Virus record (IMG/VR): IMGVR_UViG_3300045993_000593
Coordinates: 1-50,158 of that record
From: a virus
DNA: 50,158 nucleotides
Strand: one strand, 5' to 3'
In this document: positions 8,092 through 46,518 of the stretch, in pieces
Numbering within the stretch: position 1 is the first letter of the stretch
Layout: each line of letters starts with the position of its first letter
The notes under the pieces: model-generated
The model's database searches: none
What the model was told of the DNA's origin: nothing
Seen by the model: the letters and a program-made list of their open reading frames with translations, nothing else
Made by a program: the position numbers and the translations under genes

Positions 8092-8718
8092 TTAAGCCTC
8101 CATTGCCATTAGATTAAAATCAACGGTAGGGCATTCATCGTTAACCACAGGTATTACTGGTTTTGGCTGTTTAATCCCTGACTTCCTCTCAATCATTGAA
8201 TAAGTCGCTTCATCCAACACTACTTTTGCGGCCCGCATGAATTTGATGGATTCCTTTTCCTCCTTCTTCAATGCGGCTAGGCGTAGCCGTTCATTCTCCT
8301 GTTCGCGTTTGATGTTGACTGTGCGCAACTGTTCCTCATGCAATTGCTGGCGGGCCAGCGCGGATTCCTTCTTCATCGTCCCATATTCGGTTTCCCCTGT
8401 ATGGTTTCCGTTCAAGGCGACGTTGATTTGCTTAATAAACGCTTTTAACTTGCGCCATGTTTCCCGTTTTTTATGCATGGCGTAGCGGGCGCGGCGCATC
8501 CAGTCAGTATCGATGGGTTTCCCCATTTTTCGCTCAAGTGTGGCTTGTTTGATTTGATCGTCTATCAAATCATAGCCAGCTTTCGCTTCTTCACACTGTT
8601 GGGTGATGCGCAATGCAAGTTCGGCCAGTTGCGGTTTGGTAAGGCCGTCAATAGGGATTGAAAGCAAAGGGTTTTCTTCGGACATGTGCGAAGATGGGTT
8701 GTTGGCGGGGTTGTTCAT
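8092..8718 (-). CDS. Coiled-coil phage protein in the antirepressor operon
   Basis: The protein is 208 aa from the ATG at 8718, which has GGAG 6 bases upstream; the TTG at 8730 is a poorer start. The middle (about 115-160) is a lysine/glutamate-rich coiled coil (LARQQLHEEQLR...ENERLRLAALKKEEK). No enzyme motif is visible. It lies between the C4-like RNA and the Rha-like gene, the position of icd in P1, but sequence similarity to Icd was not recognised. Confidence 0.7.
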   Translation of the reverse strand: MNNPANNPSSHMSEENPLLSIPIDGLTKPQLAELALRITQQCEEAKAGYDLIDDQIKQATLERKMGKPIDTDWMRRARYAMHKKRETWRKLKAFIKQINVALNGNHTGETEYGTMKKESALARQQLHEEQLRTVNIKREQENERLRLAALKKEEKESIKFMRAAKVVLDEATYSMIERKSGIKQPKPVIPVVNDECPTVDFNLMAMEA

Positions 8719-8773
8719 GGATGACTCCAAACTGGTAATTGAAATTAGCCACGTTCAGTTTGTCTGCTGAATG

Positions 8774-8905
8774 GGTGGCAGGATGTGCGAGGAGACAAAA
8801 ACCGGCAGTTTGGGACCGGCGAACCTAAAGGTTCCCCCGCACACCCCACCATAATGGATGGAATTCGGGCGTAAAAAAACGCCACATTCCGAATGGAGGG
8901 CGCTT
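8774..8905 (-). ncRNA. C4-like antisense RNA and its downstream target
   Basis: Read on the minus strand, the leader carries GGTGGGGTGTGCGGGG (8850-8835), a GAACC/GGTTC hairpin (8836-8821 region) and a CCGG-flanked hairpin, features that resemble C4 RNAs of P1-like phages. The GC-rich segment is complementary to a second stretch downstream at 8792-8774: TGTGCG pairs with CGCACA and GGTGG with CCACC, with one mismatch. In P1, C4 RNA pairs with such boxes to block translation of the icd-ant mRNA. The boundaries are approximate. Confidence 0.55.
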
Positions 8906-10833: not shown

Positions 10834-11105
10834 AACCCAATCCTGAAACCTACAACCCGGACCCTGAATACCTTCAGGGTCTATTGCAGCAAGCCTACCC
10901 GGATTTGCCGCTGTTCAAGCGCTACGAAGCGGCGGCTTCGGCCTTGAATATCAGCGTCAAAAGCATACAAGCCTATATTGATGCAAGGGGGGTTGCCAGT
11001 ACAAGGGACATACCCTATACGGCACAATTTGCCTTGGAATGCCTGGCACGGGGTGAAGAACTCTGCCCCGTGTGCCACGCGCTGCTCAAAAACTTAGAAG
11101 GTTAA
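10830..11105 (+). CDS. Small HTH-like protein with CxxC
   Basis: The 91-aa protein has a helical segment, FKRYEAAASALNISVKSIQA, that may be a helix-turn-helix, and ends with a CPVCH pair. It is coupled to the gene before by ATGA. Its role is unknown; a DNA-binding regulator is possible. Confidence 0.6.
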   Translation: MKPNPETYNPDPEYLQGLLQQAYPDLPLFKRYEAAASALNISVKSIQAYIDARGVASTRDIPYTAQFALECLARGEELCPVCHALLKNLEG

Positions 11106-11107
11106 CA

Positions 11108-11539
11108 ATGAACGCCAAACCCTTCCTATTCCTGCTCTGTGCGGCATTGTCCGCACAGGCGGACATCTACAAATGCGAGATTAACGGCCGGACGGTCTAT
11201 CAAGACCATCCTTCAGCCTCCTGCCAAGCCACCGGCATAGACACTCAAGGCCCAAACCCGGAAGACATGGCGCGCATCCTCACCGAACGCGAAAACAACT
11301 CAAAGGACTATCATAGGCAAATGGCGGAATGGGAACATGGCTGGATAGCCAGCGAACGCGCCAAGATAGACGCGCAAAACGAGCGCACCCGGCAAGTCGG
11401 AATGGAAACCGACCGGCTACGCGCCAAAACCCGCGCCATCCTCAACGACATTGGCGTGGTGCATCCCCCCGTCTACGGAACGCCCTTTTTCCCCATGCCG
11501 GTCGTCATCGTCAACCCTCACCCGCACAGCCAAAAATAA
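11108..11539 (+). CDS. Secreted DUF4124-domain protein
   Basis: The protein is 143 aa from the ATG at 11108. It has a signal peptide (NAKPFLFLLCAALSAQA, cleavage expected after AQA). A DUF4124-type motif, DIYKCEINGRTVYQDHP, follows directly, and then a long charged helix (about 55-120) and a proline-rich tail. It is predicted to be periplasmic. DUF4124 proteins are common in proteobacterial chromosomes, so this may be a captured host gene. A lysis or envelope role such as a spanin-like function is possible but not shown. Confidence 0.7.
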   Translation: MNAKPFLFLLCAALSAQADIYKCEINGRTVYQDHPSASCQATGIDTQGPNPEDMARILTERENNSKDYHRQMAEWEHGWIASERAKIDAQNERTRQVGMETDRLRAKTRAILNDIGVVHPPVYGTPFFPMPVVIVNPHPHSQK

Positions 11540-15755: not shown

Positions 15756-16745
15756 ATGGCAACCCCCAATATTTTCGATAACAGGCTGTTCTCGCTGATC
15801 AGCCTCACCGCAGCCATCACCAACCGGCCCTACGTCCCCACCATGATATCCGACATGGGGCTGTTCGAAGAGGAAGGCGTACCGACATTGGATGTTTGGA
15901 TCGAGGAGGAGAATGGCATCCTCTATCTGCTGGATGTCAAGCCTCGCGGCGGACCCGGCGAGCCGGTCGTCACCGGCAAGCGCAAGGGTTACATCTTCCG
16001 CTGCCCGCACATCCCTCAATCGTGGGCGGTACAAGCCGACGAGGTGAACTTCATCCGCGAGTTCAACACCGAGAACGGCCAGCGCACACTGCAATCGGTC
16101 ATCAACCGCAAGCTGTCCATCGCCAGGCGCAACCTGGACTACACGATTGAAAGCCACAGGATGCTGGCGCTCCAAGGCATTTACATGGACCACAACAACG
16201 ACCAAAAGTCGCTGTTTACCGCGTTTGGCGTTTCCCAAACCCATCTCCACATGGACTTGGCAACCTCGGCCACCAGCCAGTCCGACAAGCACCAGCAGAT
16301 TTACGACGCGGTCGAAGCCGCGCTGGACGGCATCCCGTTCACCGGCATTGGTGTCATCGCCGGGAAAAACTACTGGACGGACTATATCGGCAACGACGAC
16401 ATCAACAAAACTTACTTGAACACGCCCATGTCGGCTGAACTAAGGGCCGATCCGCGCACACCGCGCACCTTCGGCGGCGTGGAAACCCGCCGCTACCGTG
16501 GCACGGCGGCGGTCAAACCGGCGGACGACGAAGCCATTGCCTTCCCGTTGGGCGTCCCCGGCATGTACCTGACCCGGTACGCCCCGGCGGACATCCTGCA
16601 AGCCATCGGCAATCTAGGACTGCCGTACTACTCCTACCCGATGGAAATTACGCCCAAGGGCGTTAGCGGCGAGGCCCAGTCCAACCCGCTGAACATCGTC
16701 ACCCGGCCTGCAGCCATCATCCGGCTGTACAAGGGCGCGAGCTAG
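15756..16745 (+). CDS. Major capsid protein (GpE family)
   Basis: The protein is 329 aa, normal for the lambda GpE capsid family (HK97 fold). Motifs include LFSLISLTAAITNRPYVPTM at the front, PRGGPGEPVVTGKRKGYIFR, and a C-terminal end reading PLNIVTRPAAIIRLYKGAS. The ATG has AGGAAACAGGAAACC before it. It forms the icosahedral shell. Confidence 0.95.
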   Translation: MATPNIFDNRLFSLISLTAAITNRPYVPTMISDMGLFEEEGVPTLDVWIEEENGILYLLDVKPRGGPGEPVVTGKRKGYIFRCPHIPQSWAVQADEVNFIREFNTENGQRTLQSVINRKLSIARRNLDYTIESHRMLALQGIYMDHNNDQKSLFTAFGVSQTHLHMDLATSATSQSDKHQQIYDAVEAALDGIPFTGIGVIAGKNYWTDYIGNDDINKTYLNTPMSAELRADPRTPRTFGGVETRRYRGTAAVKPADDEAIAFPLGVPGMYLTRYAPADILQAIGNLGLPYYSYPMEITPKGVSGEAQSNPLNIVTRPAAIIRLYKGAS

Positions 16746-16757: not shown

Positions 16758-17546
16758 ATGATGCATCACGACCCCGCAAACTGGACATTCCAGCAATGGC
16801 TAACGCTGCTGCTGTTCCCCTTTTGCGGCGGTTTGATTAGTTTTTACCAGCATCATAAAAAACGGATGTATTGCAAGGATGCAAGGCCGTTTAATATGAT
16901 TGAGTTTATTGCCGAGATTTCCACATCAAGTTGCGTAGGTGTCGCCGTTGGATTCTTTCTGGTTCCGATTGACATTGAAAGCGCATGGATATATGCAATC
17001 GTCGGTTTTTCAGGGTATTCTGCCAACCGGATATTATTCCTTAGCCAAAACATAGCCGAATACAAATTAATCTCTTGGAGTGGTGTTAATAAAGACGATT
17101 TTAACAACATTCTCAAAACTCACGGCCAAGATGATTTAGACAAACTAGACTCGCTTGAAAGTTTGGAATCCGACGGGGTATGTTTGCCGGTTTGGCAAGC
17201 TTTTTATCTGATAGAGCAAGGCATAGCCATGCGGCATATGCTGTGGCCTAAAAACCAGTTCGTCAGTATGCCAACCACCGGAAAAATACATTTGAAAGCG
17301 GAAAACTTATGGTCAGAACCTAATGCGGCATTTGGCCGTACCCAACCCGATCAACTTGTCTTAATACTGCCTTCCATATCCATTAAAATGCCCAACGGGC
17401 AAATACTACCTGGATGGACACCGTCCGTGCAGGACATGTCCATTCCTGGATGGATCAGGGTTTCCGACACAGAAATAACCGGAATTGCCCAACAGTCGCC
17501 TACAACTGAAGGGCATACCGACCAAACGGAGGCTCAAAGTGACTAA
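16758..17546 (+). CDS. Holin-like membrane domain fused to a Tad2-like (DUF2829) domain
   Basis: The protein is 262 aa. Residues about 12-95 hold three hydrophobic segments (about 14-29, 49-69, 76-92) and match LydA-type phage holins, including EFIAEISTSSCVGVAVG and the AIVGFSGYSANRIL end. A linker (about 100-140) follows. Residues about 143-236 resemble DUF2829/Tad2: VWQAFYLIEQGIAMRHMLWP, then SISIKMPNGQILPGWTPS and QDMSIPGWIRV. Tad2 proteins bind Thoeris signalling nucleotides. The gene looks more AT-rich than its capsid neighbours and interrupts the head genes, so it looks like an acquired moron. Domain calls are by eye. Confidence 0.7.
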   Translation: MMHHDPANWTFQQWLTLLLFPFCGGLISFYQHHKKRMYCKDARPFNMIEFIAEISTSSCVGVAVGFFLVPIDIESAWIYAIVGFSGYSANRILFLSQNIAEYKLISWSGVNKDDFNNILKTHGQDDLDKLDSLESLESDGVCLPVWQAFYLIEQGIAMRHMLWPKNQFVSMPTTGKIHLKAENLWSEPNAAFGRTQPDQLVLILPSISIKMPNGQILPGWTPSVQDMSIPGWIRVSDTEITGIAQQSPTTEGHTDQTEAQSD

Positions 17547-17868
17547 TCCGTTTTTTGACTTAAGCCTGCTTAACGAATCCTTGGACTCCCTTGGCAACAC
17601 CGACATAACCATAAAGGTCGCTGGTGTCGCCACGGTATTGCCCGGCATATTCTACGCCCCCGACTCGCCGCAGACGATGGGAGGGTTTGGTTTCCCGGAA
17701 GTGCTGCCCCGAGCATCCCTGACAGCATCCTTGTTTTACCAGACCTTCGCAAAGGAAGGGGATTCTGTTGTTGTGGACGGCATTGAGTACACCATCTCCC
17801 AACCGCCCAACACCGACGGCGGCGGGCGGGTGTTGCTGACACTAAGCAAGGCGGTATCCAACCTATGA
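17539..17868 (+). CDS. Head completion / head-tail joining protein
   Basis: The protein is 109 aa from the GTG at 17539, 6 bases after GGAGG (17528-17532) and overlapping the preceding stop. Its beta-rich pattern (ITIKVAGVATVLPGIF, YQTFAKEGDSVVVDG) fits small head-tail connector proteins of the FII type. It is coupled to the next gene by a 4-bp overlap. Confidence 0.65.
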   Translation: MTNPFFDLSLLNESLDSLGNTDITIKVAGVATVLPGIFYAPDSPQTMGGFGFPEVLPRASLTASLFYQTFAKEGDSVVVDGIEYTISQPPNTDGGGRVLLTLSKAVSNL

Positions 17869-33715: not shown

Positions 33716-35023
33716 CTAACCCAAAGCACCATACATCAACCACTGTGGATTGGCTTTTGCAGACTTGGCAGGATTCCTCAACCCCACAACCTCCGCCAGT
33801 CTTGCCGCCATCTGTTCGCGCAAGTCCGGGCAGGGGATTTGCTTAATCAGCGGACGAGCATTCGCCGATAACGCCGCCCTGCCTTCCATCGTGTCCAAGT
33901 CAACACCGGCTGACAAAGCTTGAAACAGGAATGACGACAACGGCACGGCCTCGGCTATCCGTGCCATGAACGCCTCCGCGCCTTCCGCCCTAACCAGCGA
34001 ATCAGGGTCTTCGGCCTCGGGCAAGATCACAAACCCCACCGAGCGACCGGCGCGGCATTCGGAAATGCTGGTTTCCAGCGCACGGACAGCGGCCTTGAAC
34101 CCCGCCTCGTCGCCGTCAAAGCAAAACACCATCCGCTTGGCATGGCGGAACAGCAAGGCCACTTGCTCCACACCCACAGCCGTCCCGAGCGTGGCGACGG
34201 TGTTCGTCAAGCCAAACTGGGCCAAAGCAATCACATCTAGGTTGCCTTCCACGATGATGATTTCATCCGGTCTACTATTGGCTTGCAGCAGTTCGTACAG
34301 CCCGTACACCTCGCGGCCCTTGTTGAACACCGGCGTTTCCGGCGAATTCAGGTATTTCGGCTTGCCGTCCCCCAATAAACGACCGCCAAAGCCGATAACA
34401 TCCCCTTTCCGGTTGCGGATGGGGAACATGACCCTGCCACGAAAGCGGTCGTAGTGCTTGCCTTCACGCTCCACCATCAAACCCGACTCCACCTTGTGCG
34501 CCATCGGCCACTCGTCTGGCAGGTTGCGCCACGCATCCGGCGCGAAGCCAAGCGCGTAAGTCTTCGCCATGTCGCCAGTCACGCCACGGCCTTTCAGGTA
34601 GCCAATCGCGTCCTGGCTTGCCTTCAGGCTGGACTGGTACACCCGCATGGCGGCATGTTGCACCGCCAGCAATGCCTCCGTGTCCACGCCGTGGCTTTCA
34701 GCTTGCGGCTTGGCGAACCTTGGCCGCTCCATGCCAGACTGACCCGCCAGCCAGTCCACCGCATCCAAGAAATCCATCCTGTCGTATTCCATTAGAAAGC
34801 CGATGGCGTTCCCATGCGCCCCGCAACCGAAGCAATGGTAAGTCTGTCTGACTGGCGACACGTTGAAGCTCGGGCTTTTCTCGCTGTGAAACGGGCATCG
34901 TGATTGGTACGACATGCCGGCCTTTTTCAACGGCACACGGTGGTCGATCAGGGTTACAATGTCGGTCTTTGCCAGCAAGTCATCCAGCCAGTCCTGCGGG
35001 ATGCGGTGCTCGGGGTTAGCCAT
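33716..35023 (-). CDS. DnaG-type DNA primase without a helicase-binding domain
   Basis: The protein is 435 aa. The N-terminal CHC2 zinc finger is intact: CPFH at about 43-46 and CFGC at about 64-67. The catalytic core follows, with the TOPRIM acids present: IIIVEGNLDVIALAQFG (E of VEG) and FCFDGDEAGFKAA (DGD). Cellular DnaG is about 580-600 aa with a C-terminal helicase-interacting domain. That domain is missing or reduced here, so recruitment must work differently, perhaps through the VapE helicase. It is the last gene of the leftward operon. It makes RNA primers. Confidence 0.9.
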   Translation of the reverse strand: MANPEHRIPQDWLDDLLAKTDIVTLIDHRVPLKKAGMSYQSRCPFHSEKSPSFNVSPVRQTYHCFGCGAHGNAIGFLMEYDRMDFLDAVDWLAGQSGMERPRFAKPQAESHGVDTEALLAVQHAAMRVYQSSLKASQDAIGYLKGRGVTGDMAKTYALGFAPDAWRNLPDEWPMAHKVESGLMVEREGKHYDRFRGRVMFPIRNRKGDVIGFGGRLLGDGKPKYLNSPETPVFNKGREVYGLYELLQANSRPDEIIIVEGNLDVIALAQFGLTNTVATLGTAVGVEQVALLFRHAKRMVFCFDGDEAGFKAAVRALETSISECRAGRSVGFVILPEAEDPDSLVRAEGAEAFMARIAEAVPLSSFLFQALSAGVDLDTMEGRAALSANARPLIKQIPCPDLREQMAARLAEVVGLRNPAKSAKANPQWLMYGALG

Positions 35024-35028
35024 TGCGA

Positions 35029-35244
35029 TTATTGTTGCTCATCGCTTTCATTATCCTCAATCCATTCTTTGTACTTATTTATTGCTTCATTTAATGCCTC
35101 ATTGGGTGAATTTTCATCGTATCCTTCTAAATAACAGTCCCCCGTTAACTGAACATAAAAACCTTTGCCTATACCCGATACGGCATATAATCGTATTTCT
35201 TGCCCATCTGTCAGTAGGATTTCTTTTAAATCATCTTCGTTCAT
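35029..35244 (-). CDS. Small acidic protein
   Basis: The 71-aa, strongly acidic protein (ends KEWIEDNESDEQQ) has a beta-rich front. It lies 5 bp upstream of the primase start, so probably cotranscribed. No family is recognised. Confidence 0.65.
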   Translation of the reverse strand: MNEDDLKEILLTDGQEIRLYAVSGIGKGFYVQLTGDCYLEGYDENSPNEALNEAINKYKEWIEDNESDEQQ

Positions 35245-35257
35245 TAACCATCATCCT

Positions 35258-37021
35258 CTATTCATTAAAATCAAACATTCGCGCAAACAAGATCCGCCAA
35301 GCCAACGCCATGGCTTGCGGCACCTGCCCGTTGCCGATGGCTTTGATGCGCTGCGCGGCATGGGGCTGTTTTGGGCAGACTCTTTTTATAGGGGGTTCAA
35401 TACACCATGGATTTCCCGTGACAAGATATAGTGACACCCAATTTTTTTCTTCGTAAGACATGGATCGCCATACCTCTTGAAGCGTTGATAATGTTTTCCG
35501 CAAAAGTCCAATTTCTTTGCAGGCATCCCACAAATTTTGCAATCCGACTGTCGCTTCGGCATTTCTTTCCCATTCATCCAATGATGTTTCGCGTGACAGA
35601 ATATGCATAATGTCTCTAGGTTCAAAGGGTCGTTGTTTGATGGGTTTTCGTCTTTGTGATGGACTTGCAGTCTCGTTGTCACCCCACAAATTTTGCAACT
35701 TAATTTTTTGAATTTTTGCGCCCTGTATTGGAGTGCTGATTTTGTTGGGTTCTCTTTCATCCTGTGAAGGCTTGCGCACGTACTGTTGCAATAAATCCTT
35801 TTTTGAAATACTGTAAAATCTTCTAGCCTTTCGCCGTATCGTTTTCTGATTAGTGTTTTTGAGCAATGAAGGCATTGTTTCTCTGGCAATATTTTTGCTT
35901 TTGGCATTGTTTGCTCTCTGTTGAATAGTGTCGTAATAATTCGTTAATTCTTTAGAAATAACAGAATCAATCGATGTCCAGCCGACAGGCCAATTCATCA
36001 GCCATTCAGTCCAATCTGGATTAAGCTGGCCTTGAATCGCCGCCGTCTCGTTTTCGCGCATGATATGGCCGATGACTGAATCCCTACTTTTTTGCGAAGC
36101 GGGGAAGGTGATGTTCTTGCCGTCTTGGTGGCTAGGCGTGGGGAACGCCTGCACTTGGTCGGTCAAGTTCATGCCTCCGCCCTTAAATGCCCCTTTGGTT
36201 TTTTGATACCGGCCCACCCTATCGGCATAGCCTTTTTTGTGGTCATGGGCTTGCGGGGTTTGCCACAATGCCGGCCCGTCATTTTCCGCTTGCATGACGG
36301 CGGTTATCAAGCCGTCGCCACTACTGGCCGATGCGCCTTTTTTATTGTAGTTGCCGTTGATTGTGGGCGTGGGCCAGAGGGTTTGTGTCCTGACTTGGGC
36401 CGCTAGGCTTAACATGTGTCCTTTGGCAACTCTTGATAACCTTGGGTTGTCGTCAATCCGCCGCGAGTCATTCACATCCGAAACGGTCGGTGTGCGCCAA
36501 TATCCACAGTCGCTTTCTAAGGTGCTTGGCGCCGGCATCGGCCGCCGATACAACCGCCCATTCCGAGTCATACCCGAGGGCGGCAAGGTCAGCAACGACT
36601 CGCCATCCTCCTCGAATAGCGAGTGCTGGACTGTTCTCCACGAATGCGAAACGGGGTCGAATGTCGCCAATAATGCGGGCGAACTCGAACCACAAACCGC
36701 TTCTGGCCCCGTCCAGCCCAGCGCCTTTCCCTGCGACGGAAATATCTTGACAGGGAAACCCGCCGCTGATGACGAGCCTGTGAGCGTTTGCGCGTAGCGC
36801 TCCAAACATTGCTGCACACTCTGGGTTGTCGGGCAGGAAGGTTCGCACGTCGTCCCATATTGGGAATATAGGTAAACTTCCATCCAGTTGCCTTGCAAGC
36901 AAAACTTTTCTGGCATATGGTTCAATTTCGACTGCGCCAAAACATCTATGTCCGAGTAATTCTCCGCCAAGGACGGAACCTCCTGCCCCGGCAAATAATT
37001 CAAAGGAATACAATTCCACAT
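35258..37021 (-). CDS. Overlapping-frame protein with methyltransferase C-terminal motif X
   Basis: The 587-aa frame runs from ATG 37021 through the whole C5 methyltransferase gene in another phase. Residues about 120-190 carry SHSWRTVQHSLFEEDGES, LPPSGMTRNGRLYRRP and YWRTPTVSDVND, resembling a phage/prophage protein family recalled from neighbours of C5 methyltransferases. LNPDWTEWLMNWPVGW follows near 340. The end, RIKAIGNGQVPQAMALAW, is motif X of C5 methyltransferases. Residues about 355-530 are the back-translation of a nested HNH insertion. Whether this is a separate protein, or the C-terminal half of the methyltransferase reached by frameshifting, is open. Confidence 0.6.
   Translation of the reverse strand: MWNCIPLNYLPGQEVPSLAENYSDIDVLAQSKLNHMPEKFCLQGNWMEVYLYSQYGTTCEPSCPTTQSVQQCLERYAQTLTGSSSAAGFPVKIFPSQGKALGWTGPEAVCGSSSPALLATFDPVSHSWRTVQHSLFEEDGESLLTLPPSGMTRNGRLYRRPMPAPSTLESDCGYWRTPTVSDVNDSRRIDDNPRLSRVAKGHMLSLAAQVRTQTLWPTPTINGNYNKKGASASSGDGLITAVMQAENDGPALWQTPQAHDHKKGYADRVGRYQKTKGAFKGGGMNLTDQVQAFPTPSHQDGKNITFPASQKSRDSVIGHIMRENETAAIQGQLNPDWTEWLMNWPVGWTSIDSVISKELTNYYDTIQQRANNAKSKNIARETMPSLLKNTNQKTIRRKARRFYSISKKDLLQQYVRKPSQDEREPNKISTPIQGAKIQKIKLQNLWGDNETASPSQRRKPIKQRPFEPRDIMHILSRETSLDEWERNAEATVGLQNLWDACKEIGLLRKTLSTLQEVWRSMSYEEKNWVSLYLVTGNPWCIEPPIKRVCPKQPHAAQRIKAIGNGQVPQAMALAWRILFARMFDFNE
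35386..35907 (-). CDS. HNH endonuclease nested in the methyltransferase region
   Basis: The protein is 173 aa. The HNH core is clear: CKICGVTTRLQVHHKDENP then LETLCIFCHAKHHW (about 72-115), with zinc-binding CxxC pairs before (CLHCSKT) and after (CKICGMP). It lies in a frame different from the surrounding long frame, within an AT-rich insert of about 540 bp. It is a homing-type nuclease inserted between the target-recognition and motif X parts of the methyltransferase locus. No intron boundaries could be proven. Confidence 0.85.
   Translation of the reverse strand: MPKAKILPEKQCLHCSKTLIRKRYGERLEDFTVFQKRIYCNSTCASLHRMKENPTKSALQYRAQKFKKLSCKICGVTTRLQVHHKDENPSNNDPLNLETLCIFCHAKHHWMNGKEMPKRQSDCKICGMPAKKLDFCGKHYQRFKRYGDPCLTKKKIGCHYILSREIHGVLNPL
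36468..37019 (-). CDS. C5-cytosine DNA methyltransferase, catalytic half
   Basis: The 183-aa frame starts at GTG 37019, two bases after the ATG of the overlapping frame; one AGGATAG site serves both. It has motif I FAGAGG, motif IV GFPCQDIS with the catalytic cysteine, motif VI VENSPAL, and motif VIII HLRKRLWILAH. It stops just after motif VIII, so target-recognition and motifs IX-X are missing from this frame; motif X is found in the other frame. Full C5 methyltransferases are 300-450 aa. It could act as a split enzyme with the partner frame. Confidence 0.8.
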   Translation of the reverse strand: MELYSFELFAGAGGSVLGGELLGHRCFGAVEIEPYARKVLLARQLDGSLPIFPIWDDVRTFLPDNPECAAMFGALRANAHRLVISGGFPCQDISVAGKGAGLDGARSGLWFEFARIIGDIRPRFAFVENSPALAIRGGWRVVADLAALGYDSEWAVVSAADAGAKHLRKRLWILAHTDRFGCE

Positions 37022-37023
37022 GA

Positions 37024-37545
37024 CTATCCTATTTCTAATTGTTTAGTCGATTTAGACACCTTAAAATTAAGATGTTTATTATCATACTTACAGTGGCATG
37101 AACGGCACATTCTTTTGAAATCATTTGGGTCATCATAATTACCTGTTAAATTAGCCCAATCATATATTTTTGATTCATCAGTAGTTCCACAAACTTCGCA
37201 TTTTGAAGGTTGGCCAAACCTTCTATATATCCTTGTATGTTTTTTTACAATTCCCGCATTACTTCCTTTCCATCCAGAATTATTTTCACCCCACTGATTT
37301 ATTTTGTATGCCTTTCTTGGTTTAATCTCAAGTCTTTTCATGGCGTTTTCTATCACTTTCCCAGTTACTTCTAACGCTAATGCACACTCTTGTTGAGTCT
37401 TCCCTGATTGGTATAACTGTTTTAGCAATTCGTCATCTATTTTTGTCCTGTACACATTGGCTTTATTATTTCTCCATTCTTGAGTACATCTGCTTTTAGC
37501 AGCTAAAGACATTTTTTGTTTCGTTTCTTTAGAAAAAGTTTTCAT
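37024..37545 (-). CDS. HNH endonuclease with NUMOD-like motif
   Basis: The protein is 173 aa from the ATG at 37545; an upstream TTG or ATG start near 37569 is possible. It starts with a NUMOD3-like motif, KTFSKETKQKMSLAAKSR, then a helix-turn-helix-like segment (KTQQECALALEVTGKVIENA), and an HNH core CEVCGTTDESKIYDWAN with RMCRSCHCKYDNKH. It ends 2-3 bases before the methyltransferase start, and its composition is AT-rich. It is a free-standing homing endonuclease or a site-specific nuclease linked with the methyltransferase. Confidence 0.85.
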   Translation of the reverse strand: MKTFSKETKQKMSLAAKSRCTQEWRNNKANVYRTKIDDELLKQLYQSGKTQQECALALEVTGKVIENAMKRLEIKPRKAYKINQWGENNSGWKGSNAGIVKKHTRIYRRFGQPSKCEVCGTTDESKIYDWANLTGNYDDPNDFKRMCRSCHCKYDNKHLNFKVSKSTKQLEIG

Positions 37546-37665
37546 AATACCGCCCGCACTAGCGAACAATGCCAGTTCATTAAGGTGTGTGGTTTTTTAA
37601 AGTGGTTTATTCATTGTATACACATATAGGTTATTGATAATATGTATTTTTGTGGATAATGTTCA

Positions 37666-37714
37666 ATGGCCTGCAAAGCCGTGTACGTGGGTTCGATTCC
37701 CGCCTCAGCCTCCA
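37666..37714 (+). other. attP core: 3' half of a tRNA-Cys(GCA) gene
   Basis: The 49 bp make the anticodon arm (ATGGC/CTGCAAA/GCCGT with anticodon GCA at 37673-37675), variable bases, T arm (GTGGG TTCGATT CCCGC), the 3' acceptor strand CTCAGCC, discriminator T and CCA. No matching GGCTGAG acceptor 5' strand lies upstream, so it is not a full tRNA gene. A tRNA 3' end beside an integrase is the hallmark of attP: integration would restore an intact host tRNA-Cys. Confidence 0.85.
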
Positions 37715-37823
37715 ATCTTTTTAATAATATCAATCTGTTGGAAATGTTGTTAATTTTCATTGGTTGATTTTATCGTTAAAAATAGCTCAAAATAACGTTA
37801 AAAAGTGTCAAAAAAGGCTTATA

Positions 37824-37841
37824 GTGTGGTTGAAACCACAC
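37824..37841. repeat. Inverted repeat between attP and integrase
   Basis: GTGTGGTT and AACCACAC form a perfect 8-bp stem with a 2-base gap. It may be an arm-type integrase site or a terminator for the minus-strand zinc-ribbon gene. The remaining attP flank (37570-37863) is AT-rich and has no gene. Confidence 0.35.
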
Positions 37842-37863
37842 GGCAACGGCTTTTTTGTCCGTT

Positions 37864-38040
37864 TCAATCCCATGGGCCTTTTTCTTGTAAGTGCGCTTTT
37901 GTCCCGCAGAACGGGCAAGTCAAGGCTTGCACGGGGTTGGTTTGAAATTCGCCGACCGTCCACCATCTGGAACATTGGCAGCATTCAAAGTGATACAAGG
38001 TTTCGATTGAATATTCATGCTTAAATTTATCGTGTGACAT
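37864..38040 (-). CDS. Small zinc-ribbon protein
   Basis: The 58-aa protein starts at the ATG at 38040, which overlaps the integrase start (CATG). It has CxxC pairs in CCQC and CPFC (about 20-23 and 44-47), as in zinc ribbons. A longer start at 38106 lies inside the integrase gene and is unlikely. Its role may be regulation of the divergent integrase, which is inferred only from position. Confidence 0.6.
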   Translation of the reverse strand: MSHDKFKHEYSIETLYHFECCQCSRWWTVGEFQTNPVQALTCPFCGTKAHLQEKGPWD

Positions 38041-39073
38041 GGCGACTATCCGGCAAAGAAGTTCTGGCAGTTGGGAGGTGGTGATACGGTCCAAGTCGCT
38101 GCCCAAGCCGTACTATGCCACATTGGACACGGAGGCCGAGGCGAGGGACTATGCCCATCGCATCGAGGGGATGATTGCGGCGGGTGAAACCCCTAATGAG
38201 TTGATGGGGGTAGAACCGCAAGCGACCACTGTGGGCGATTGGCTCAAGATGTACCGTGCCGGTTCGCGGGTGTCGGCGCACGATGCCGATGTGATTGGTC
38301 GCTTGCCGGACGTGGTGACGGGATTTCCCGGCCACAAGTTGACGGTGGCATGGGCATTGTCGTGGGTGTCTTCGATGCATTCCTCTGGAATAGCACCTGG
38401 GACGATTCGTAAAAAGGTGGGAGCGCTGGCGAGGTGTTTGGATTGGTGCAAGATGGCTGGTTTGGTTGCAGCCAATCCAGTGAGGGAGTTGCCGCGTAAC
38501 TATGCCGCCTACCCAGACGGGCATGTCAACCGGCGTGAGGATGATGAACGGGACCGCCGCCTGTTGCAGGGTGAGGAGGATAGGATTCGTCAAGTGCTGG
38601 TTCATCGGTATGACTGGTTGTTATTGTTCGACATGGGTATTGAAACCGCCATGCGGATGCGCGAAATGTTCACGATGGATTGGGGGCAGGTCTCCTTGGA
38701 AAAACGCACGGTATTTCTGGAGAAGACTAAGAATGGCGACCGGCGGCAGGTGCCAATGTCCAGTACCATCCATGCCGTCCTTGCACAGATAACGAATCAG
38801 GAAGGCCGGTTGTTTCCATGGTGGGACGGGGACGTAGTGACAATGGCGAAGACGACCGCCAGATTGAGCCACCAGTGGGCTAGGATTGCCCGTGATGCCG
38901 GTTGTGTTGATTTGAGGTTTCATGATTTGCGGCACGAGGCGACGTGCCGACTCTATGAGCGGACGACGCTGAGTGACATTCAGATTGCTAGGATTACCGG
39001 GCATAAGTCATTGCTCATGTTGAAAAGGTATGCCAATTTACGGGGTTCCGATTTGGCATTGAGTTTATGGTGA
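38039..39073 (+). CDS. int: Tyrosine-type integrase
   Basis: The protein is 344 aa, normal for phage integrases. The arm-binding N-terminal domain (MATIRQRSSGSWEVVIRS), the core-binding domain (about 65-160) and the catalytic domain with R in TAMRMREMF, K in EKTKNGDRRQV, HDLRHEATC, and GHKSLLMLKRYANL with the nucleophilic tyrosine are all visible. It is the only plus-strand gene in the leftward block and faces away from the attP-like tRNA half. It inserts the circle at a host tRNA-Cys gene. Confidence 0.95.
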   Translation: MATIRQRSSGSWEVVIRSKSLPKPYYATLDTEAEARDYAHRIEGMIAAGETPNELMGVEPQATTVGDWLKMYRAGSRVSAHDADVIGRLPDVVTGFPGHKLTVAWALSWVSSMHSSGIAPGTIRKKVGALARCLDWCKMAGLVAANPVRELPRNYAAYPDGHVNRREDDERDRRLLQGEEDRIRQVLVHRYDWLLLFDMGIETAMRMREMFTMDWGQVSLEKRTVFLEKTKNGDRRQVPMSSTIHAVLAQITNQEGRLFPWWDGDVVTMAKTTARLSHQWARIARDAGCVDLRFHDLRHEATCRLYERTTLSDIQIARITGHKSLLMLKRYANLRGSDLALSLW

Positions 39074-39074
39074 T

Positions 39075-39431
39075 TCAATGGTTATATCGACAGTCTGTAT
39101 GCCCGCATTTATGACACATAGGCGATGATATGGAATATTCCAATGTATGAAAATAATAATGCTTACGTCTTCTTGCGGCCCTTAGTTCAAATAACCAAAC
39201 AGACGCTTTTAACAGAAACATTATAATAGGATTGACCCAATGCGGAATTTCATCATTCAGATATTGAACTCGATCATACAAAACCCTTAAAACATCTTGG
39301 CAATTAGTCCCAGAATAAACTTCTGATTTTGGTTTTCGCATATATGTTCGTTTAACAAATACTAAAGTTTGAATTTCATCACCATCTAATGATAGTAATT
39401 TATAAGCATGGCCATTGTCTAATATTTCCAT
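39075..39431 (-). CDS. Acb2/Tad1-type cyclic-nucleotide-binding protein
   Basis: The protein is 118 aa. The pattern YKLLSLDGDEIQTLVFVKR, YSGTNCQDVLRVLYDRVQYL and FLLKASVWLFELRAARR (residues about 10-93) is that of the Acb2/Tad1 helical-hairpin family (for example GTTN-E-L-LI-RL-YLN and the ALxWLxxR end). Acb2 binds CBASS cyclic dinucleotides and Tad1 binds Thoeris signals. A CxxC-CxxxxC tail (about 108-115) is extra. Its convergent neighbour is the integrase. Function is inferred from the family. Confidence 0.7.
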   Translation of the reverse strand: MEILDNGHAYKLLSLDGDEIQTLVFVKRTYMRKPKSEVYSGTNCQDVLRVLYDRVQYLNDEIPHWVNPIIMFLLKASVWLFELRAARRRKHYYFHTLEYSISSPMCHKCGHTDCRYNH

Positions 39432-39498
39432 AAATAATCCTGTATAAAATTAAATAGTTATTATATTCTTTTTTAAATAACTCTTTATCTTGCAATGG

Positions 39499-39804
39499 TT
39501 AATCATGTAACCAATTTGCTAATCTGTTTAAATCTTGATCTAAATTTGCAAGTGCAACGTCTTTAGTTGTACCCATACCCGATGCATAGTTATCGTTAAA
39601 TCCAGCATCAAACGGGTTTGCTTGTTTAAGTTGTTCTTCACTCATGTTTGAAAAACCTAACAACGCAATCCCACACCTCGCCTCAATTATGCCGTCTGCG
39701 TTTGTTTGAAACCATGTTTCAGTTGTTTTAGCTACACCTACATGTCTGCATACAAAAACATTTATCGGTTCTTGATTACTCTGCATAATATTATTTTCGT
39801 TCAT
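39499..39804 (-). CDS. Uncharacterised accessory protein
   Basis: The 101-aa protein may start at the first ATG or at 39786 (MQSNQEPINVFV). It is a small alpha/beta protein with a final helix DQDLNRLANWLHD. No family is recognised. It lies next to the Acb2/Tad1-like gene on the same strand, so an anti-defence role is possible by association. Confidence 0.6.
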   Translation of the reverse strand: MNENNIMQSNQEPINVFVCRHVGVAKTTETWFQTNADGIIEARCGIALLGFSNMSEEQLKQANPFDAGFNDNYASGMGTTKDVALANLDQDLNRLANWLHD

Positions 39805-39831
39805 AAATTTCCCTTGGTTTTACCTAAATAA

Positions 39832-40035
39832 TTATGTTAAAAATTCAACCCCAAACCGTCCTATTCTAAACACCCTGCGCCATCCATTGAGTTCGCTGTA
39901 AACGGGATGGTGTTTGCGCTTGTCCACGATGCTTAAGCCTTTGCCGAATACCCTGACCCATCCGCCACCGTCGTATAGGCATAGGCTGAACCATGGGTGG
40001 TTGATGGTTAGCGTGTCGTCATTGCCGATGTTCAT
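39832..40035 (-). CDS. Small phage protein of unknown function
   Basis: The 67-aa protein has the pattern WVRVFGKGLSIVDKRKHHP and GWRRVFRIGRFGVEF, which resembles a recurring small phage family of unknown function. It overlaps the upstream gene by 17 bp. Confidence 0.65.
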   Translation of the reverse strand: MNIGNDDTLTINHPWFSLCLYDGGGWVRVFGKGLSIVDKRKHHPVYSELNGWRRVFRIGRFGVEFLT

Positions 40036-40276
40036 GAATCAGCGCCTTTCTGCGGTTCTTGCGCTGGGCAAGTTCTACGGGTTTGTTTTTGCTGGCTTCC
40101 TTTTCCATGTATTTCAACAGATGCTTGCGGACGAACCTTAAGCCGTTGCCACGGCCACGGCCGAGGTCTTTGGCTTCGATCTGCTTTGCGCTGACCAGCC
40201 GCTTCAGCAATGCCATGGAGACCTTGATGGTTTCCGCCGCTTGCCGAAGATTGAGTATTTCGTCTGCATAATTCAT
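40019..40276 (-). CDS. Small HTH DNA-binding protein (excisionase-like)
   Basis: The protein is 85 aa from the ATG at 40276; the in-frame start at 40303 is less likely. A winged-helix/MerR-like front, ILNLRQAAETIKVSMALLKR, followed by a strand and basic helix RFVRKHLLKYM, is typical of excisionase or HTH-17 proteins. It may be an Xis for the nearby integrase or an operon regulator. Confidence 0.65.
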   Translation of the reverse strand: MNYADEILNLRQAAETIKVSMALLKRLVSAKQIEAKDLGRGRGNGLRFVRKHLLKYMEKEASKNKPVELAQRKNRRKALIHEHRQ

Positions 40277-40418
40277 TTGACATGCCTCCATGCATGATCC
40301 CAAATAAATCGTTCAAAACAATTCATCGGCGCATTGACATCAACCTTGTACCATTTACTTAAAAACAGGTGATAACATAAAAAACATAATATTTTATCGT
40401 ATCTTTTTTTTATATGGT

Positions 40419-40769
40419 TCATGGCTTGACGGCCCGTTTCAGGGTGTAGTAGTCATAATAGACGGGGATGTTCAATTCGCCCGCACGTTGGATTTCAGCC
40501 AATGTACCCGCCGAGTTTTCATATCCTGGCAACACCAGCACGGCATGGCAGCATTCGAGAAATGCCATGGAATACTCGTAATAGCGGGATTTTCTGATTG
40601 TGTCCGAGGGTTTTGTCATCAAGTGAAACAGGAAGTCTGACCATGGGCAAAACGGCGCATAGCCGGCGACAAACAGCCTGGTGGAGACATGCAGCCCGTT
40701 GCGGATGTTGTCCAACACGCCGAGGACGTTGTCTGCACTATACGGCCCTGCGACATAGATGCGTTTCAT
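40419..40769 (-). CDS. Nucleoside 2-deoxyribosyltransferase-like protein
   Basis: The protein is 116 aa from the ATG at 40769, after a 53-residue upstream extension that is non-coding in type. The motif MKRIYVAGPYSADN at the front, the PWSDFLFHL segment and GTLAEIQRAGELNIPVYY are those of the nucleoside 2-deoxyribosyltransferase/DUF1937 superfamily. It may salvage or exchange nucleobases, or bind NAD-like ligands. Coupled to the gene upstream by ATGA. Confidence 0.8.
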   Translation of the reverse strand: MKRIYVAGPYSADNVLGVLDNIRNGLHVSTRLFVAGYAPFCPWSDFLFHLMTKPSDTIRKSRYYEYSMAFLECCHAVLVLPGYENSAGTLAEIQRAGELNIPVYYDYYTLKRAVKP

Positions 40770-40918
40770 AACTGCCCCTTTTTCAGGTCGCGGTAGATTT
40801 TTCGATAAGCGCCGTTGCCGTGCTTGAGCGCAAGCCCCTTGCTTTCGGCGGACAGTGCGGTGTGCAGGGCGTGTTCCGCCGCCTGTTTGCATAGTTTTTT
40901 GGCGGTTTTGGCGTTCAT
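40766..40918 (-). CDS. Small basic phage protein
   Basis: A 50-aa frame (MNAKTAKKLCKQAAEHALHT...) linked by ATGA overlaps to both neighbours (40766-40769 and 40915-40918). It is lysine-rich, ending YRKIYRDLKKGQL. Its coupling, rather than any family, supports it. Missed by length cut-offs. Confidence 0.65.
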   Translation of the reverse strand: MNAKTAKKLCKQAAEHALHTALSAESKGLALKHGNGAYRKIYRDLKKGQL

Positions 40919-41082
40919 GAATCCTCACTTTCCGATTCGGTTAATTCACAAGCCCGCAAACGCGCAATGGCTTGATCAATGGTTTCGGTTATTTCCTTTG
41001 GCTCCAATGGCATCTCTGGCAATACACCCGTCCTCCATGCGTTGTAAACGATTAGATTTTGCATAATTTGCTGGAGAGTCAT
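40915..41082 (-). CDS. Small phage protein in the replication operon
   Basis: The protein is 55 aa from the ATG at 41082, which overlaps the methyltransferase stop (ATGA). The pattern QNLIVYNAWRTG then TIDQAIARL matches a recurring small phage family of unknown function. Confidence 0.7.
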   Translation of the reverse strand: MTLQQIMQNLIVYNAWRTGVLPEMPLEPKEITETIDQAIARLRACELTESESEDS

Positions 41083-44000
41083 GCCGCCTCCATGTCGGGG
41101 ATGTCGTTCTCGGCATTTTCGGCTTCCATCAGTGCGATCAAATCCGGCATGGCGTGTTCTTGTTCCGCCGCCTTGCAATAGGCCGCGCCATCAAGGAAAT
41201 AGCGCGGAGAGAGTTCCACAGCAATCGCTTTGCGGCCTTTTTTGATGGCACGGTACGGCACTGACATGATGCCGCCAAACGGGTCGTAGACGGTCTCGCC
41301 GGGGTTGGTGAAGCGTTCCACCACCCTATCAATAATGTCAAATTGGAGTGGGCAATTTTTTACTATGCAACCTTCAGCAGTATAACTTTCATCTTCTTCG
41401 ACACGAAGATTCCACGTTTCTATTTCCGATGATTCATCACATGACCTAACCTTTTTCCATGCGCCATCATCCAGTATAAATGGTGACCCCTTGGCTCTTT
41501 CTTTTATTTGAATATCGAAAGAAACAATATATTCCTGTTTAGTGTTTACCGTCCTTTCTTCGATGACGGTTGTTCCGGCTTTTCGACCAAGGTAAACACT
41601 TGCGATTGAACCATAAGCTCTTTGGGCAAGCATTGACAATCCGAGTGCAAGAGTTTTAGATACTGTTGTTGCCATAAATCTTGATCTATTTTCATGATAA
41701 TGACCATCGCCTGATAAATACCCGTCCAGTAAGCTTTTTGCATATTCTGGTGGCAATGTATAGGCATTAGGTGGAATCCGCTTATTTGAAGCACCACGCC
41801 CACAAAGTGATAATGTATCCCTTAATTTAAAATCCTTATCTTTCAAAGTTATCTGAACAGATGATCCTGTATCGTTCAATGAGTTTCCTCCATATACCCC
41901 AAGATTATTAACAAGTTCTGTAATCCTGTGTTTTCCACATGATATTACATAACTATCATTTCTTCCTGATATATGCCCATCAGCAATCCATCTTCCCACA
42001 ACAAACCAATACGCATGATCTTGTACCGATGCATCTTCAATTGGTGGTAGTTTTAAATTAACATAACTTCCTACTGTATTTTTAGATTCTATCCATTCAG
42101 GGTCGCGTTTACATGCATCCGTTTTTGAATGGCTTTCGGCCCAAGGAATATCCCTCACAGTCCTTGTCCATAATTTATGGTCTGGTGTAAGCATTATGCC
42201 CGGAACCCCATGTGCTTTAACCTGAACAACAGGTTGAACACCTGTGCTATGCGATACCAAAACCTTCCTCCACCTGCCTTTGTGAGTCAGCACATAATCA
42301 TTATTGGTAACATTTTCAATGGGAATGTATCCTTGGTTTTTGGTCAACACCAAAGAACCTATTGCAAGGCAAAGATGCATTTCTTGGCCCTTGCGCTCTT
42401 GCAGCATGTTCAAGGTGCGCATCCGTGCCACGTCGGTCCACACGTCGGGGTTCCACGAGGGCGGTTGCAGCAGCATGAAGGTGACGGGGAGCCTCCCGTG
42501 GCCGTCGATGCTCTCGCCGATGCGGACGTGCTGCTCGTAGTCGTAGATGTTTTCAAGGTGGTAATCCCTGAACCATCTGAACATAGTCGTGTGGGGCAAG
42601 GATTGCAGTTCTTCGGGTGTCATCATGCGATTTCCGCTGGAACGCCAAAAATCGTGTGCGTCCACCTGCCATCTGGCGCGGCTGTAGCCGGTGCCTTGCA
42701 ATTCCCTGCCGCCGCGCTTGTGCGGGATGATGCTGCCTTCATTGTCCAGGCAGTCGGGCTTTAGCTTGGTCACCGGCTCGTCGGCATAGGCGTTGCTGGT
42801 ATCTGTCGGGACTTTACGAAACAATAAAAGGTATTCCGGCATTCCAAAGCCGATCTTGGTACCGTCTTTGCACACTTCAGACCATCCTAGCCGGTAGGTT
42901 TGATTGTTTTCCCTGACAACATCGGTGACTATGGTAGCCATTCCCATATAATAAAAGCCGTGTTTTTGGTAGTGTTCGACGCATTTACAGTGAAACGGAT
43001 AGACAGTCTGGAAGCCCAAGCCGGTCAAGCCACCCGGCACAATCCTATCCTTGACGTGAATCGCGGCTAAACGGCCCGGTTTCAACACTCTGAGCAAATT
43101 GGGCGTTAGGAAGTCCATCTGCTCGAAAAAATGCGCGTTGTGGTCGGTGTGGCCGAAGTCGGCAAAGTTCGGGCTGTATTCGTATTGGGTGGAGAACGGC
43201 ACGGAGGTTAAGATCAGGTCCACGCTGTTGTCGGGCATGGCGGCGGTTTCCACCACGCTGTCATGGTTGACGATTTTAAACTTCTCGCCGCTGACTTCCA
43301 CCCGCGCCACGCCCATGGCCCTATGCAAGTGGTCCATCATGGCAGCGTCGGAAAGCCCGTATTCATTGATGATTCGTGTCATGTTTTGCACCGTGATGAT
43401 GTGTTTTTGCCATTTGTCCTCCAGAATCCGGCGTATTTCGCGCTCGGATTCGGTGTAAATCAGGTCAATGCGGACTTTTCCCGTCTGCAAAAACCGATGG
43501 ATTCGATGGATGGCTTGGATGAAGTCGTTGAACTTGAAGCCTATGCCTAAGAAGATGGCCCAACTGCAATGGCGCTGGAAATTGCAGCCGGAACCGGCAA
43601 TGACCGGCTTGGCCGCCAGTTCTTGAATGGCACCGTTGGAGAAGTCGATGATCGACTGTTCGCGCCGGTCTAAGTCTTGCGATCCGTACACGCTGGATAT
43701 GCCGGGGATGGCCTTATCAATGGCCTTGCGTTCCGCCTCCAAGTCATGCCAGATCAGCCTGTGCGCGGATGGGTCAAGGTTGCGAAGTTCCAGCATCTTT
43801 TCGATGCGTTTGGGCAGCGAGTCGCGCTTTTCACGCGCCGATTCCACCACGCCGAGGGCTTGCTCTTTGAACAGCAGCCCTTGGCCGTAGAAATTGTGAC
43901 CGGCGTTTTCATGGTCGTCGGGGATTTCATGCCAATGGATTTCCATTTCCGGCAACTGATAGCCCTCGTCGGGGTGTCCGAGGTCGGAGGGCTTTTGCAC

Positions 44001-44756
44001 GAACAAGCCCCACGAACTGACCCATAGCCAAAACTCATGTTCCTTGTGCTTGTGCAGGGTGAGCTTGTCGGCCTTGGTCGAGTCCCGCTTGAAAAACCGG
44101 GTCTTGCCTTGGCTGACATCGGAAACGCCCAAAAACGCGGCATAGGCCAATAGCTCTATGTAGTCGTTGGGCGAGGGCGTGGCGGTTGCCACGAAGCGGT
44201 ATTGCACCTCGTCGGAGGCTGTCCGCTCGTTCAGGGTTTTTCTATCACCCGCAAACGTTGCCATGAATTCGCGGAAGGTCTTGGTGCCGCCAAACCCCCT
44301 TAAACAAGATGCTTCGTCCAAACTGGCGACGATGAACTGGCGCGGGTCCATCTTCTGGTCGCGGATGGTTTCGTAGTTGGTCAAATAGATGCCGGTGTCC
44401 CCTGCTTCCCCAATCCGCCGGATGAATTTGACCGTCGTGCCAAGCATCGCCGCGTCGCGCATAAACTCTTGACGCACACCGAGTGGCAATACGATCAGCC
44501 CGCGCCCGTGGTTGCCAAGTTCTGCCAATTTTTTCAAGGTCAGCCGCACCACTTCCAACTGCACGACGGTTTTGCCCAGTCCGAAGCTGGAGAAGTTGGC
44601 GCAGCGGCCCTTGCGCACCATCCAGCGGATGGTGTCGCGCTGGTGCGGCTTGCAAATTGCGTTGATTTCGTCGTCGGACACGTCAAAGCCATGTTCGCCT
44701 GCCAGTTTGACCTTGGCCTTGAGGAAGGATTGATAGCGGGTTAGCAAGTCGTTCAT
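41079..44756 (-). CDS. SNF2-type helicase / DNA methyltransferase, interrupted by an intein
   Basis: The start is the ATG at 44756, two bases after the clamp stop, giving 1225 aa; after intein removal (residues 796-1134) it is 886 aa. The SNF2-like front has HQRDTIRWMVRKG, Walker A SSFGLGKTVV, and Walker B VASLDEASCL. The methyltransferase half carries the motif IV region DLILTSVPFSTQYEYSP (about 520-540) and motif I DPFGGIMSVPYRAI after the intein. This is a fused helicase-modification protein of the type seen in phages. It probably moves along phage DNA and methylates it. The intein splits it just before CPLQFDIIDRVV. Confidence 0.85.
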   Translation of the reverse strand: MNDLLTRYQSFLKAKVKLAGEHGFDVSDDEINAICKPHQRDTIRWMVRKGRCANFSSFGLGKTVVQLEVVRLTLKKLAELGNHGRGLIVLPLGVRQEFMRDAAMLGTTVKFIRRIGEAGDTGIYLTNYETIRDQKMDPRQFIVASLDEASCLRGFGGTKTFREFMATFAGDRKTLNERTASDEVQYRFVATATPSPNDYIELLAYAAFLGVSDVSQGKTRFFKRDSTKADKLTLHKHKEHEFWLWVSSWGLFVQKPSDLGHPDEGYQLPEMEIHWHEIPDDHENAGHNFYGQGLLFKEQALGVVESAREKRDSLPKRIEKMLELRNLDPSAHRLIWHDLEAERKAIDKAIPGISSVYGSQDLDRREQSIIDFSNGAIQELAAKPVIAGSGCNFQRHCSWAIFLGIGFKFNDFIQAIHRIHRFLQTGKVRIDLIYTESEREIRRILEDKWQKHIITVQNMTRIINEYGLSDAAMMDHLHRAMGVARVEVSGEKFKIVNHDSVVETAAMPDNSVDLILTSVPFSTQYEYSPNFADFGHTDHNAHFFEQMDFLTPNLLRVLKPGRLAAIHVKDRIVPGGLTGLGFQTVYPFHCKCVEHYQKHGFYYMGMATIVTDVVRENNQTYRLGWSEVCKDGTKIGFGMPEYLLLFRKVPTDTSNAYADEPVTKLKPDCLDNEGSIIPHKRGGRELQGTGYSRARWQVDAHDFWRSSGNRMMTPEELQSLPHTTMFRWFRDYHLENIYDYEQHVRIGESIDGHGRLPVTFMLLQPPSWNPDVWTDVARMRTLNMLQERKGQEMHLCLAIGSLVLTKNQGYIPIENVTNNDYVLTHKGRWRKVLVSHSTGVQPVVQVKAHGVPGIMLTPDHKLWTRTVRDIPWAESHSKTDACKRDPEWIESKNTVGSYVNLKLPPIEDASVQDHAYWFVVGRWIADGHISGRNDSYVISCGKHRITELVNNLGVYGGNSLNDTGSSVQITLKDKDFKLRDTLSLCGRGASNKRIPPNAYTLPPEYAKSLLDGYLSGDGHYHENRSRFMATTVSKTLALGLSMLAQRAYGSIASVYLGRKAGTTVIEERTVNTKQEYIVSFDIQIKERAKGSPFILDDGAWKKVRSCDESSEIETWNLRVEEDESYTAEGCIVKNCPLQFDIIDRVVERFTNPGETVYDPFGGIMSVPYRAIKKGRKAIAVELSPRYFLDGAAYCKAAEQEHAMPDLIALMEAENAENDIPDMEAA
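41355..42371 (-). mobile_element. Intein with LAGLIDADG homing endonuclease
   Basis: The 339-residue insert begins with Cys (block A, CLAIGSLVLTKNQGYIPIEN) and has TPDHKLWT in block B (about 62-69). Two endonuclease motifs follow: FVVGRWIADGH (123-133) and LLDGYLSGDGH (214-224). It ends with ESYTAEGCIVKN, followed by the extein cysteine of CPLQ. The usual penultimate His is Lys here. Its AT content is visibly higher than the flanks. Splicing joins MHL to CPLQFD and rebuilds the methyltransferase strand. Confidence 0.95.
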
Positions 44757-44758
44757 GG

Positions 44759-45868: not shown

Positions 45869-45883
45869 ATCTATCCTATTTTG

Positions 45884-46000
45884 TCAGTCAGGCTTGCCGG
45901 TCTCTTCGATGGCTTGCACCAGTTCGGTTAGCATGTCCGAGGTGTCGGCCATGAAAGCGCCGTTGTTTAGATGGGTCAGCAGTTTGTTAAGCGATGCCAT
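45884..46000 (-). CDS. Small protein, 38 aa
   Basis: Frame beginning MASLNKLLTHLNNGA, in the leftward operon. Its start overlaps the gene before by 14 bp. It looks helical and acidic at the end. Supported by position and by an in-frame second ATG at about residue 17; no family recognised. Confidence 0.5.
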   Translation of the reverse strand: MASLNKLLTHLNNGAFMADTSDMLTELVQAIEETGKPD

Positions 46001-46163
46001 GGTTGACCTCCCGTTGGATTTGTTTGAGTGTGCCCGCCTCCCAGCCGTCGTTCCAGTCAAGGTATCCGGCGGTGTCGGGGATGTGTGGGTTGTCGTTTTG
46101 CGGCTGGCCGTTCTGTCCGGCCATGAAGCCGTCGCGCCAGGTTGGGTTTTTCAGTTCGGTCAT
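45987..46163 (-). CDS. Small Rmf/CrpP-like protein
   Basis: The 58-aa protein (MTELKNPTWRDGFMAGQNG) has two GxxA/G helices, DGFMAGQNGQPQND and WNDGWEAGTLKQ, spaced like ribosome modulation factor and CrpP proteins. It is the first gene after the leftward promoter at 46194-46223, so it would be made early. Ribosome or host-factor binding is inferred. Confidence 0.55.
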   Translation of the reverse strand: MTELKNPTWRDGFMAGQNGQPQNDNPHIPDTAGYLDWNDGWEAGTLKQIQREVNHGIA

Positions 46164-46193
46164 GGTGTTTGTCCGGTTGGTTAGGGTGTGATA

Positions 46194-46500: not shown

Positions 46501-46518
46501 CCATTTGGCAGCAAGTCG

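Follow-up and report, generated by a model that had tools for sequence, protein, structure and literature searches.

Tad2 proteins are homotetramers which bind gcADPR, His-ADPR or cyclic dinucleotides and are known as free cytosolic sponges; holins are known as lysis clocks. In the window analyzed here, i.e., the entire 50,158-nucleotide stretch of the viral record IMGVR_UViG_3300045993_000593, we found a gene (P0001) that joins both kinds of domains in a single frame and is inserted in the head operon (Table 1). This fusion architecture is nearly certainly real. Like LydA class-III holins (PF16083, phrog_785), the encoded protein possesses a full-length holin part with three helices and the N-terminal and central motifs of the family, but it goes 157 residues further than these holins (~101–112 aa) and is not adjoined by an endolysin gene. 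Its C-terminal part resembles the Tad2/DUF2829 proteins (SPO1 gp34.65, HgmTad2, which is AcrIIA7, SptTad2, and ModTad2) in predicted fold and core W/D residues. Unlike in those proteins, the domain stands behind a holin, the GWNG and LAEDW motifs are replaced and the PF11195 match stays below the cut-off.

Table 1. Positions of the fusion gene, its parts and its neighbors in the window, and of a membrane-Tad2 frame from an Acinetobacter plasmid-prophage.
Feature	Position	Strand	Basis
Major capsid protein, Phage_cap_E (upstream neighbor)	15756–16745	+	Pfam
Holin-Tad2 fusion gene (P0001)	16758–17546	+	Open frame, 262 aa (ATG at 16758, stop 17544–17546)
Full-length class-III (LydA, PF16083) holin, residues 1–105	16758–17072	+	Pfam, PHROG, custom profile
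Predicted TM helix 1, residues 11–38	16788–16871	+	AlphaFold, pLDDT ~90
Predicted TM helix 2, residues 47–71	16896–16970	+	AlphaFold, hydropathy
Predicted TM helix 3, residues 75–107, extending beyond the membrane	16980–17078	+	AlphaFold
Linker, residues 106–143	17073–17186	+	Partly helical by AlphaFold; GC ~40%
Predicted Tad2-fold domain, residues 144–236	17187–17465	+	Pfam (weak), custom profile, AlphaFold/PDB matches
AENLWSEPNAAFGR, insertion common to phage Tad2 kin reading A-[ED]-N-F-W-S-P-H-N-A-A-F-A-R	17298–17339	+	Alignment
Head-tail attachment protein Hc1 (PF05354 Phage_attach, phrog_82)	17539–17868	+	Pfam, PHROGs; GTG start
2TM-Tad2 frame, pANC7919.1	L003:2710–3300 (record 8257–8847)		Open frame

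The initial annotation had proposed LydA-type membrane segments in the N-terminal part of the protein and a DUF2829/Tad2-like domain at about residues 143–236, and both assignments are borne out. The N-terminal part is matched by Phage_holin_3_3 of Pfam (residues 16–94, E 9.8e-9) with 35.7 bits, which exceeds the curated cut-off of 28.4 bits, as well as by the PHROGs family phrog_785 “holin” (E 1.6e-7), and AlphaFold places three helices there. A profile of 21 viral holins, built without the fusion protein, gave 68 bits over residues 1–105 (best of 2000 shuffles, 8.8 bits), and Foldseek with the full-length model led to LydA-family holins. With three TM helices within 105 aa, the holin part corresponds to the class-III layout of three such helices in a module of ~100 aa. 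The conserved motifs M-x-x-x-DP at the N-terminus and FN-x-x-E-x-I-x-EI-x-TS in the central region are present, and alignments with holins encoded by Janthinobacterium, Sulfurimonas, and Nitratiruptor phages begin at residue 1 of the protein. We found around 35 holin relatives in IMG/VR and five in GTDB, and all those with a readable end stop at ~101–112 aa. Their gene neighborhoods make the relatives look like genuine lysis holins: one adjoins an endopeptidase gene in Janthinobacterium phage Donnerlittchen and another a lysozyme gene in Nitratiruptor phage NrS-3. A precedent for the location exists in Sulfurimonas phage SNW-1, where a class-III holin is encoded a few genes downstream of a “capsid protein E” gene. 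The charges of the loops (+4 in the loop joining helices 1 and 2, −2 in that joining helices 2 and 3, and +1 after helix 3; in homologs, in the same order, +3.6, −1.2, and +1.1) point to an N-out/C-in topology, by which the Tad2 part is predicted to face the cytoplasm.

As for the C-terminal part, modelling allows us to assign a Tad2 fold to residues ~144–236 with confidence. Pfam detected the Tad2-like family PF11195 at residues 147–228 with an E-value of 0.006 (17.5 bits) in the full protein and 0.0012 (19.7 bits) with the domain alone, both scores lying under the curated cut-off of 25 bits, while 30.6 bits (E 4e-8) were reached with a profile made from 38 Tad2 domains of viruses, the fusion protein excluded; the best shuffle scored 8.0 bits. 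In PHROGs, three unnamed families were weakly matched via their C-terminal halves, and two of the three are also strongly matched by a genuine Tad2 protein. Residues 147–238 share 29% identity (E 0.01) with an Acinetobacter DUF2829 protein, which in turn gives 41% against SPO1 Tad2 (PDB 8sme, E 9e-11). A PDB sequence search with the whole 262-aa protein returned nothing useful. In a full-length alignment, the N-termini of the Tad2 rows were put onto the holin part, and the two domains were therefore modelled separately. The AlphaFold model of residues 136–262, made with 70 relatives, has a mean pLDDT of 88. When compared with known structures, as had been suggested initially, it retrieved Tad2 proteins as all of the 24 best PDB matches (E 7e-6 to 3e-3, probability 1.00), the next match having an E-value of 1.6; those at the top were HgmTad2/AcrIIA7, ModTad2, SptTad2, and SPO1 Tad2, with a TM-score of up to 0.87 over the target. 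The named best matches in a viral structure library were Tad2-like throughout. The core residues W163, W220, D226, and W232 are retained in the domain, as is the FWSPHN-type insertion; the latter is shared with the Tad2 kin L037 and L038, and viral kin have the common stretch A-[ED]-N-[LF]-W-S-x-x-N-A-A-F-x-R.

Both signature motifs of characterized Tad2 proteins are, in turn, replaced: R-x-G-W-N-G by HMLWP and L-A-E-D-W by SIPGW, and the position of W-x-x-S-Q-x-D-x-L-A-E-D-W reads WTPSVQDMSIPGW. The missing motifs are common to characterized Tad2 proteins of different ligands, and the solved Tad2 sequences also carry both of them or close variants. Among 70 viral Tad2 relatives, 37 columns reach a conservation of at least 80%; of these, the fusion protein keeps 13 and the next lowest family member 23, a contrast which is overstated, as these relatives were collected by patterns derived from the GWNG/LAEDW motifs. 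The ADPR pocket of Tad2 comprises the β1-β2 loop, the β4-α3 loop, and helix α3 (PMC12043709). We infer that both lost motifs fall in the region of this pocket, and thus, judging from the sequence, the ligand has likely been changed or lost in the fusion protein.

The gene lies between capsid and connector genes and is more AT-rich than its neighbors, as was noticed from the outset; Pfam recognizes Phage_cap_E upstream and Phage_attach downstream, and the GC content is 45% vs. 55–61% in the neighboring genes, with a GC3 of 0.48 vs. 0.65–0.81. GC3 is low in each half of the gene (0.50 and 0.48) and the frame is intact over 786 bases, with neither a stop nor a frameshift between the halves, which argues against an assembly chimera; together with the coupling to hc1, we consider such an artifact unlikely. 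According to AlphaFold, helical pieces of the linker continue to residue 138. The capsid gene stops 12 bases before the fusion gene, whose ATG is preceded by a weak AAGG. On the other side, hc1 with its GTG start shares 8 bases with the end of the fusion gene, and the hc1 ribosome site GGAGG (17528–17532) lies inside the fusion gene. No such insert was seen among capsid relatives: for 80 IMG/VR relatives, all 54 distinct readable next genes follow the capsid gene directly, starting from 39 bases upstream to 20 bases downstream of its stop, and the connector gene directly follows the capsid gene also in Pseudomonas phage U8. Pfam recognized Phage_attach in one of the IMG/VR next genes (E 5e-9); in U8, the match is weak (E 0.006). 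Given this and the overlap with the connector start, the fusion gene is an accessory insert, translationally coupled to hc1 and fitted into late translation. The presence of integrase and CI-type repressor genes in the window indicates that the phage is temperate. The fusion protein is the sole holin candidate recognized in the 50 kb, and no endolysin gene was recognized in the window, the next gene after the fusion gene being hc1. The record looks like a fragment, since the VapE-type gene at the left end of the window starts at profile position 39, and might miss an endolysin gene.

The novelty initially claimed for the arrangement holds within the searches run. Using P0001 patterns, no second holin-Tad2 fusion was found in IMG/VR, the collection searches for relatives being limited to short patterns, and none of the ~35 holin and ~80 Tad2 relatives were fused to each other. 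In two overlapping draws of Pseudomonadota, 767 genome look-ups with PF11195 yielded five genomes with Tad2 and no fusion; 369 Pseudomonadota look-ups with the A5 alignment profile yielded no holin-Tad2 fusion. Around half of the 80 best IMG/VR Tad2 relatives have a soluble N-terminal domain of ~75 aa starting with YIGTK, and a holin was found in none of the 80. The phage Tad2 proteins with this YIGTK-type partner (phrog_872, phrog_1048) are the closest sequence kin of our Tad2 domain and likewise carry Tad2 at the C-terminus, yet their partner is soluble, whereas that of the fusion protein is a membrane domain. The YIGTK domain follows the pattern YIGTK...GYLVEY-x-DGG...GYISWSP-x-x-VF...AYR (L066, L071, L072, L073, L087, L101, L103, L111, L115, and others); in L038, which carries such a domain, Pfam names the Tad2 part only.

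Membrane segments in frame before Tad2 also occur in a head operon of the Acinetobacter plasmid-prophage pANC7919.1, where the annotated DUF2829 frame extends upstream through two TM segments to 197 aa. In contrast to the fusion protein, this frame has two TM segments and no LydA holin, and its annotated start omits the TM part. The start is ambiguous, as GGAG before the upper ATG and AAGGA before the lower one are both good ribosome sites; the frame possibly encodes a second membrane-Tad2 protein, or two products. It suggests that membrane attachment of Tad2 arose maybe more than once. The same head operon contains, a short distance downstream of the capsid gene, a gene encoding an RyR-domain protein (PF02026; L235:12808–15605). 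Members of the RyR-domain family were shown to degrade or sequester cADPR signals (PMC13232231), and the two pANC7919.1 genes possibly represent clustered anti-Thoeris genes. In an E. coli phage-plasmid-like record, the DUF2829 gene adjoins dut, with no holin beside it.

With respect to other Tad2 phages, Tad2 adjoins the endolysin gene in Vibrio phage 1F273_PE002 and lies one gene from it in 41E34.2, while Sinorhizobium phage AP-20-A encodes a holin (p014), Tad2 (p015), and an autolysin (p016) in a row (PMC13299392). A general Tad2-endolysin linkage was rejected: among 17 other Tad2-phage records with PF00959 or PF05838 endolysins, the two were within 3 kb in two records, which is not above chance (P 0.67). 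A PF16083 holin was found within 5 kb of Tad2 in three of four records (P 0.03), a sample too small to bear weight.

We tentatively favor, at somewhat less than even confidence, the explanation that the gene encodes a late class-III holin whose C-terminal cytosolic Tad2-fold domain regulates hole formation. The protein would build up in the inner membrane at a late stage of infection, and the Tad2-fold domain would determine whether the holin assembles into holes and at what time, controlled either by binding of a host nucleotide signal or by oligomerization alone. This explanation is favored by the completeness of the holin, its lysis-type relatives and its status as sole candidate, and by the Tad2 fold, the C-in charge pattern, the late-operon position and the translational coupling. 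The lack of a recognized endolysin in the window and the absent Tad2-endolysin linkage across the 17 records count against a lysis role, and, the canonical motifs being lost, there may be no ligand at all. Binding of a signal, if it occurs, could allow the phage to link lysis to the immune-signalling state of the host. The more specific proposal, in which the presence or absence of a host immune nucleotide is sensed by the Tad2-fold domain and hole formation is advanced or delayed accordingly, we consider unlikely; were it true, the phage would adjust the moment of lysis to the defence status of the host. The replacement of both signature motifs weakens this proposal as well as a Thoeris-sponge function. 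The fusion of complete modules hints either at a coupling of immune-signal sensing with lysis timing or at sponging combined with a membrane location.

The main rival, which we see as possible though on the unlikely side, makes the holin part a mere anchor, so that Tad2 takes up signals of Thoeris or CBASS in the vicinity of membrane effectors while being produced alongside the capsid proteins that trigger these systems. The major head protein can set off Thoeris, and a prohead protease can set off CBASS (PMC11312562, PMC12043709). Stand-alone Tad2 genes also belong to head modules in Escherichia phage EF2-1, where Tad2 follows the coat gene, and in Acinetobacter plasmid pACI-6db8, where it comes two genes after a gene for capsid cement. 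Taken together, this favors an anti-defence role. The position between head genes of a known trigger kind and the predicted cytoplasmic location of the Tad2 domain favor the anti-Thoeris reading as well, as does the different 2-TM segment before Tad2 in the RyR-bearing head operon of pANC7919.1, ambiguous as its start is. Yet, the GWNG and LAEDW motifs are lost, late genes come late for signal capture and the holin half is conserved whole, beyond the needs of an anchor. The capsid families PF05065 and PF03864, by which a linkage to head modules would show, are essentially absent from the 42 Tad2-phage records.

The loss of both motifs and the low number of conserved columns kept are in line with a captured Tad2 part that no longer binds a signal and solely alters the assembly or stability of the holin, or is decaying, and Tad2 is often a C-terminal module behind other N-terminal domains. 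The unbroken frame, the confident fold prediction, and the retained tryptophan/aspartate core and insertion make this quite unlikely. By analogy with Cap15/OptE (S-2TM-β), the protein might also be a prophage-borne defence effector, i.e., a membrane protein that senses nucleotides and brings about host death upon infection by another phage. It has in principle the same layout of a TM part and a nucleotide-binding-type domain, the phage is temperate and the GC content of the gene differs from that of its neighbors. The resemblance is one of working principle only, as the Cap15/OptE domains are unrelated and are encoded in bacterial defence operons with a synthase. Here, no partner synthase gene was recognized alongside, the gene is situated among head genes of a late operon without promoter space and neither a PADLOC match nor an S-2TM-β match in Pfam was obtained, which renders this function very improbable.

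Elsewhere in the window, a DUF4124 protein with a signal-peptide-like start is encoded just upstream of the portal gene (11072–11539, +), beside an AT-rich stretch between terminase and portal at ~9–11 kb. A DNA methylase/helicase-like gene of 1247 aa (41079–44822, −) carries an apparent intein, with LAGLIDADG at residues 1028–1095, an intein C-terminal splicing region at 1138–1157 and methylase pieces on both sides. Within 33716–50158, the phage encodes a DnaG primase, a DNA polymerase III beta clamp and a dNMP kinase of its own, and the region also has a nucleoside deoxyribosyltransferase-like gene.
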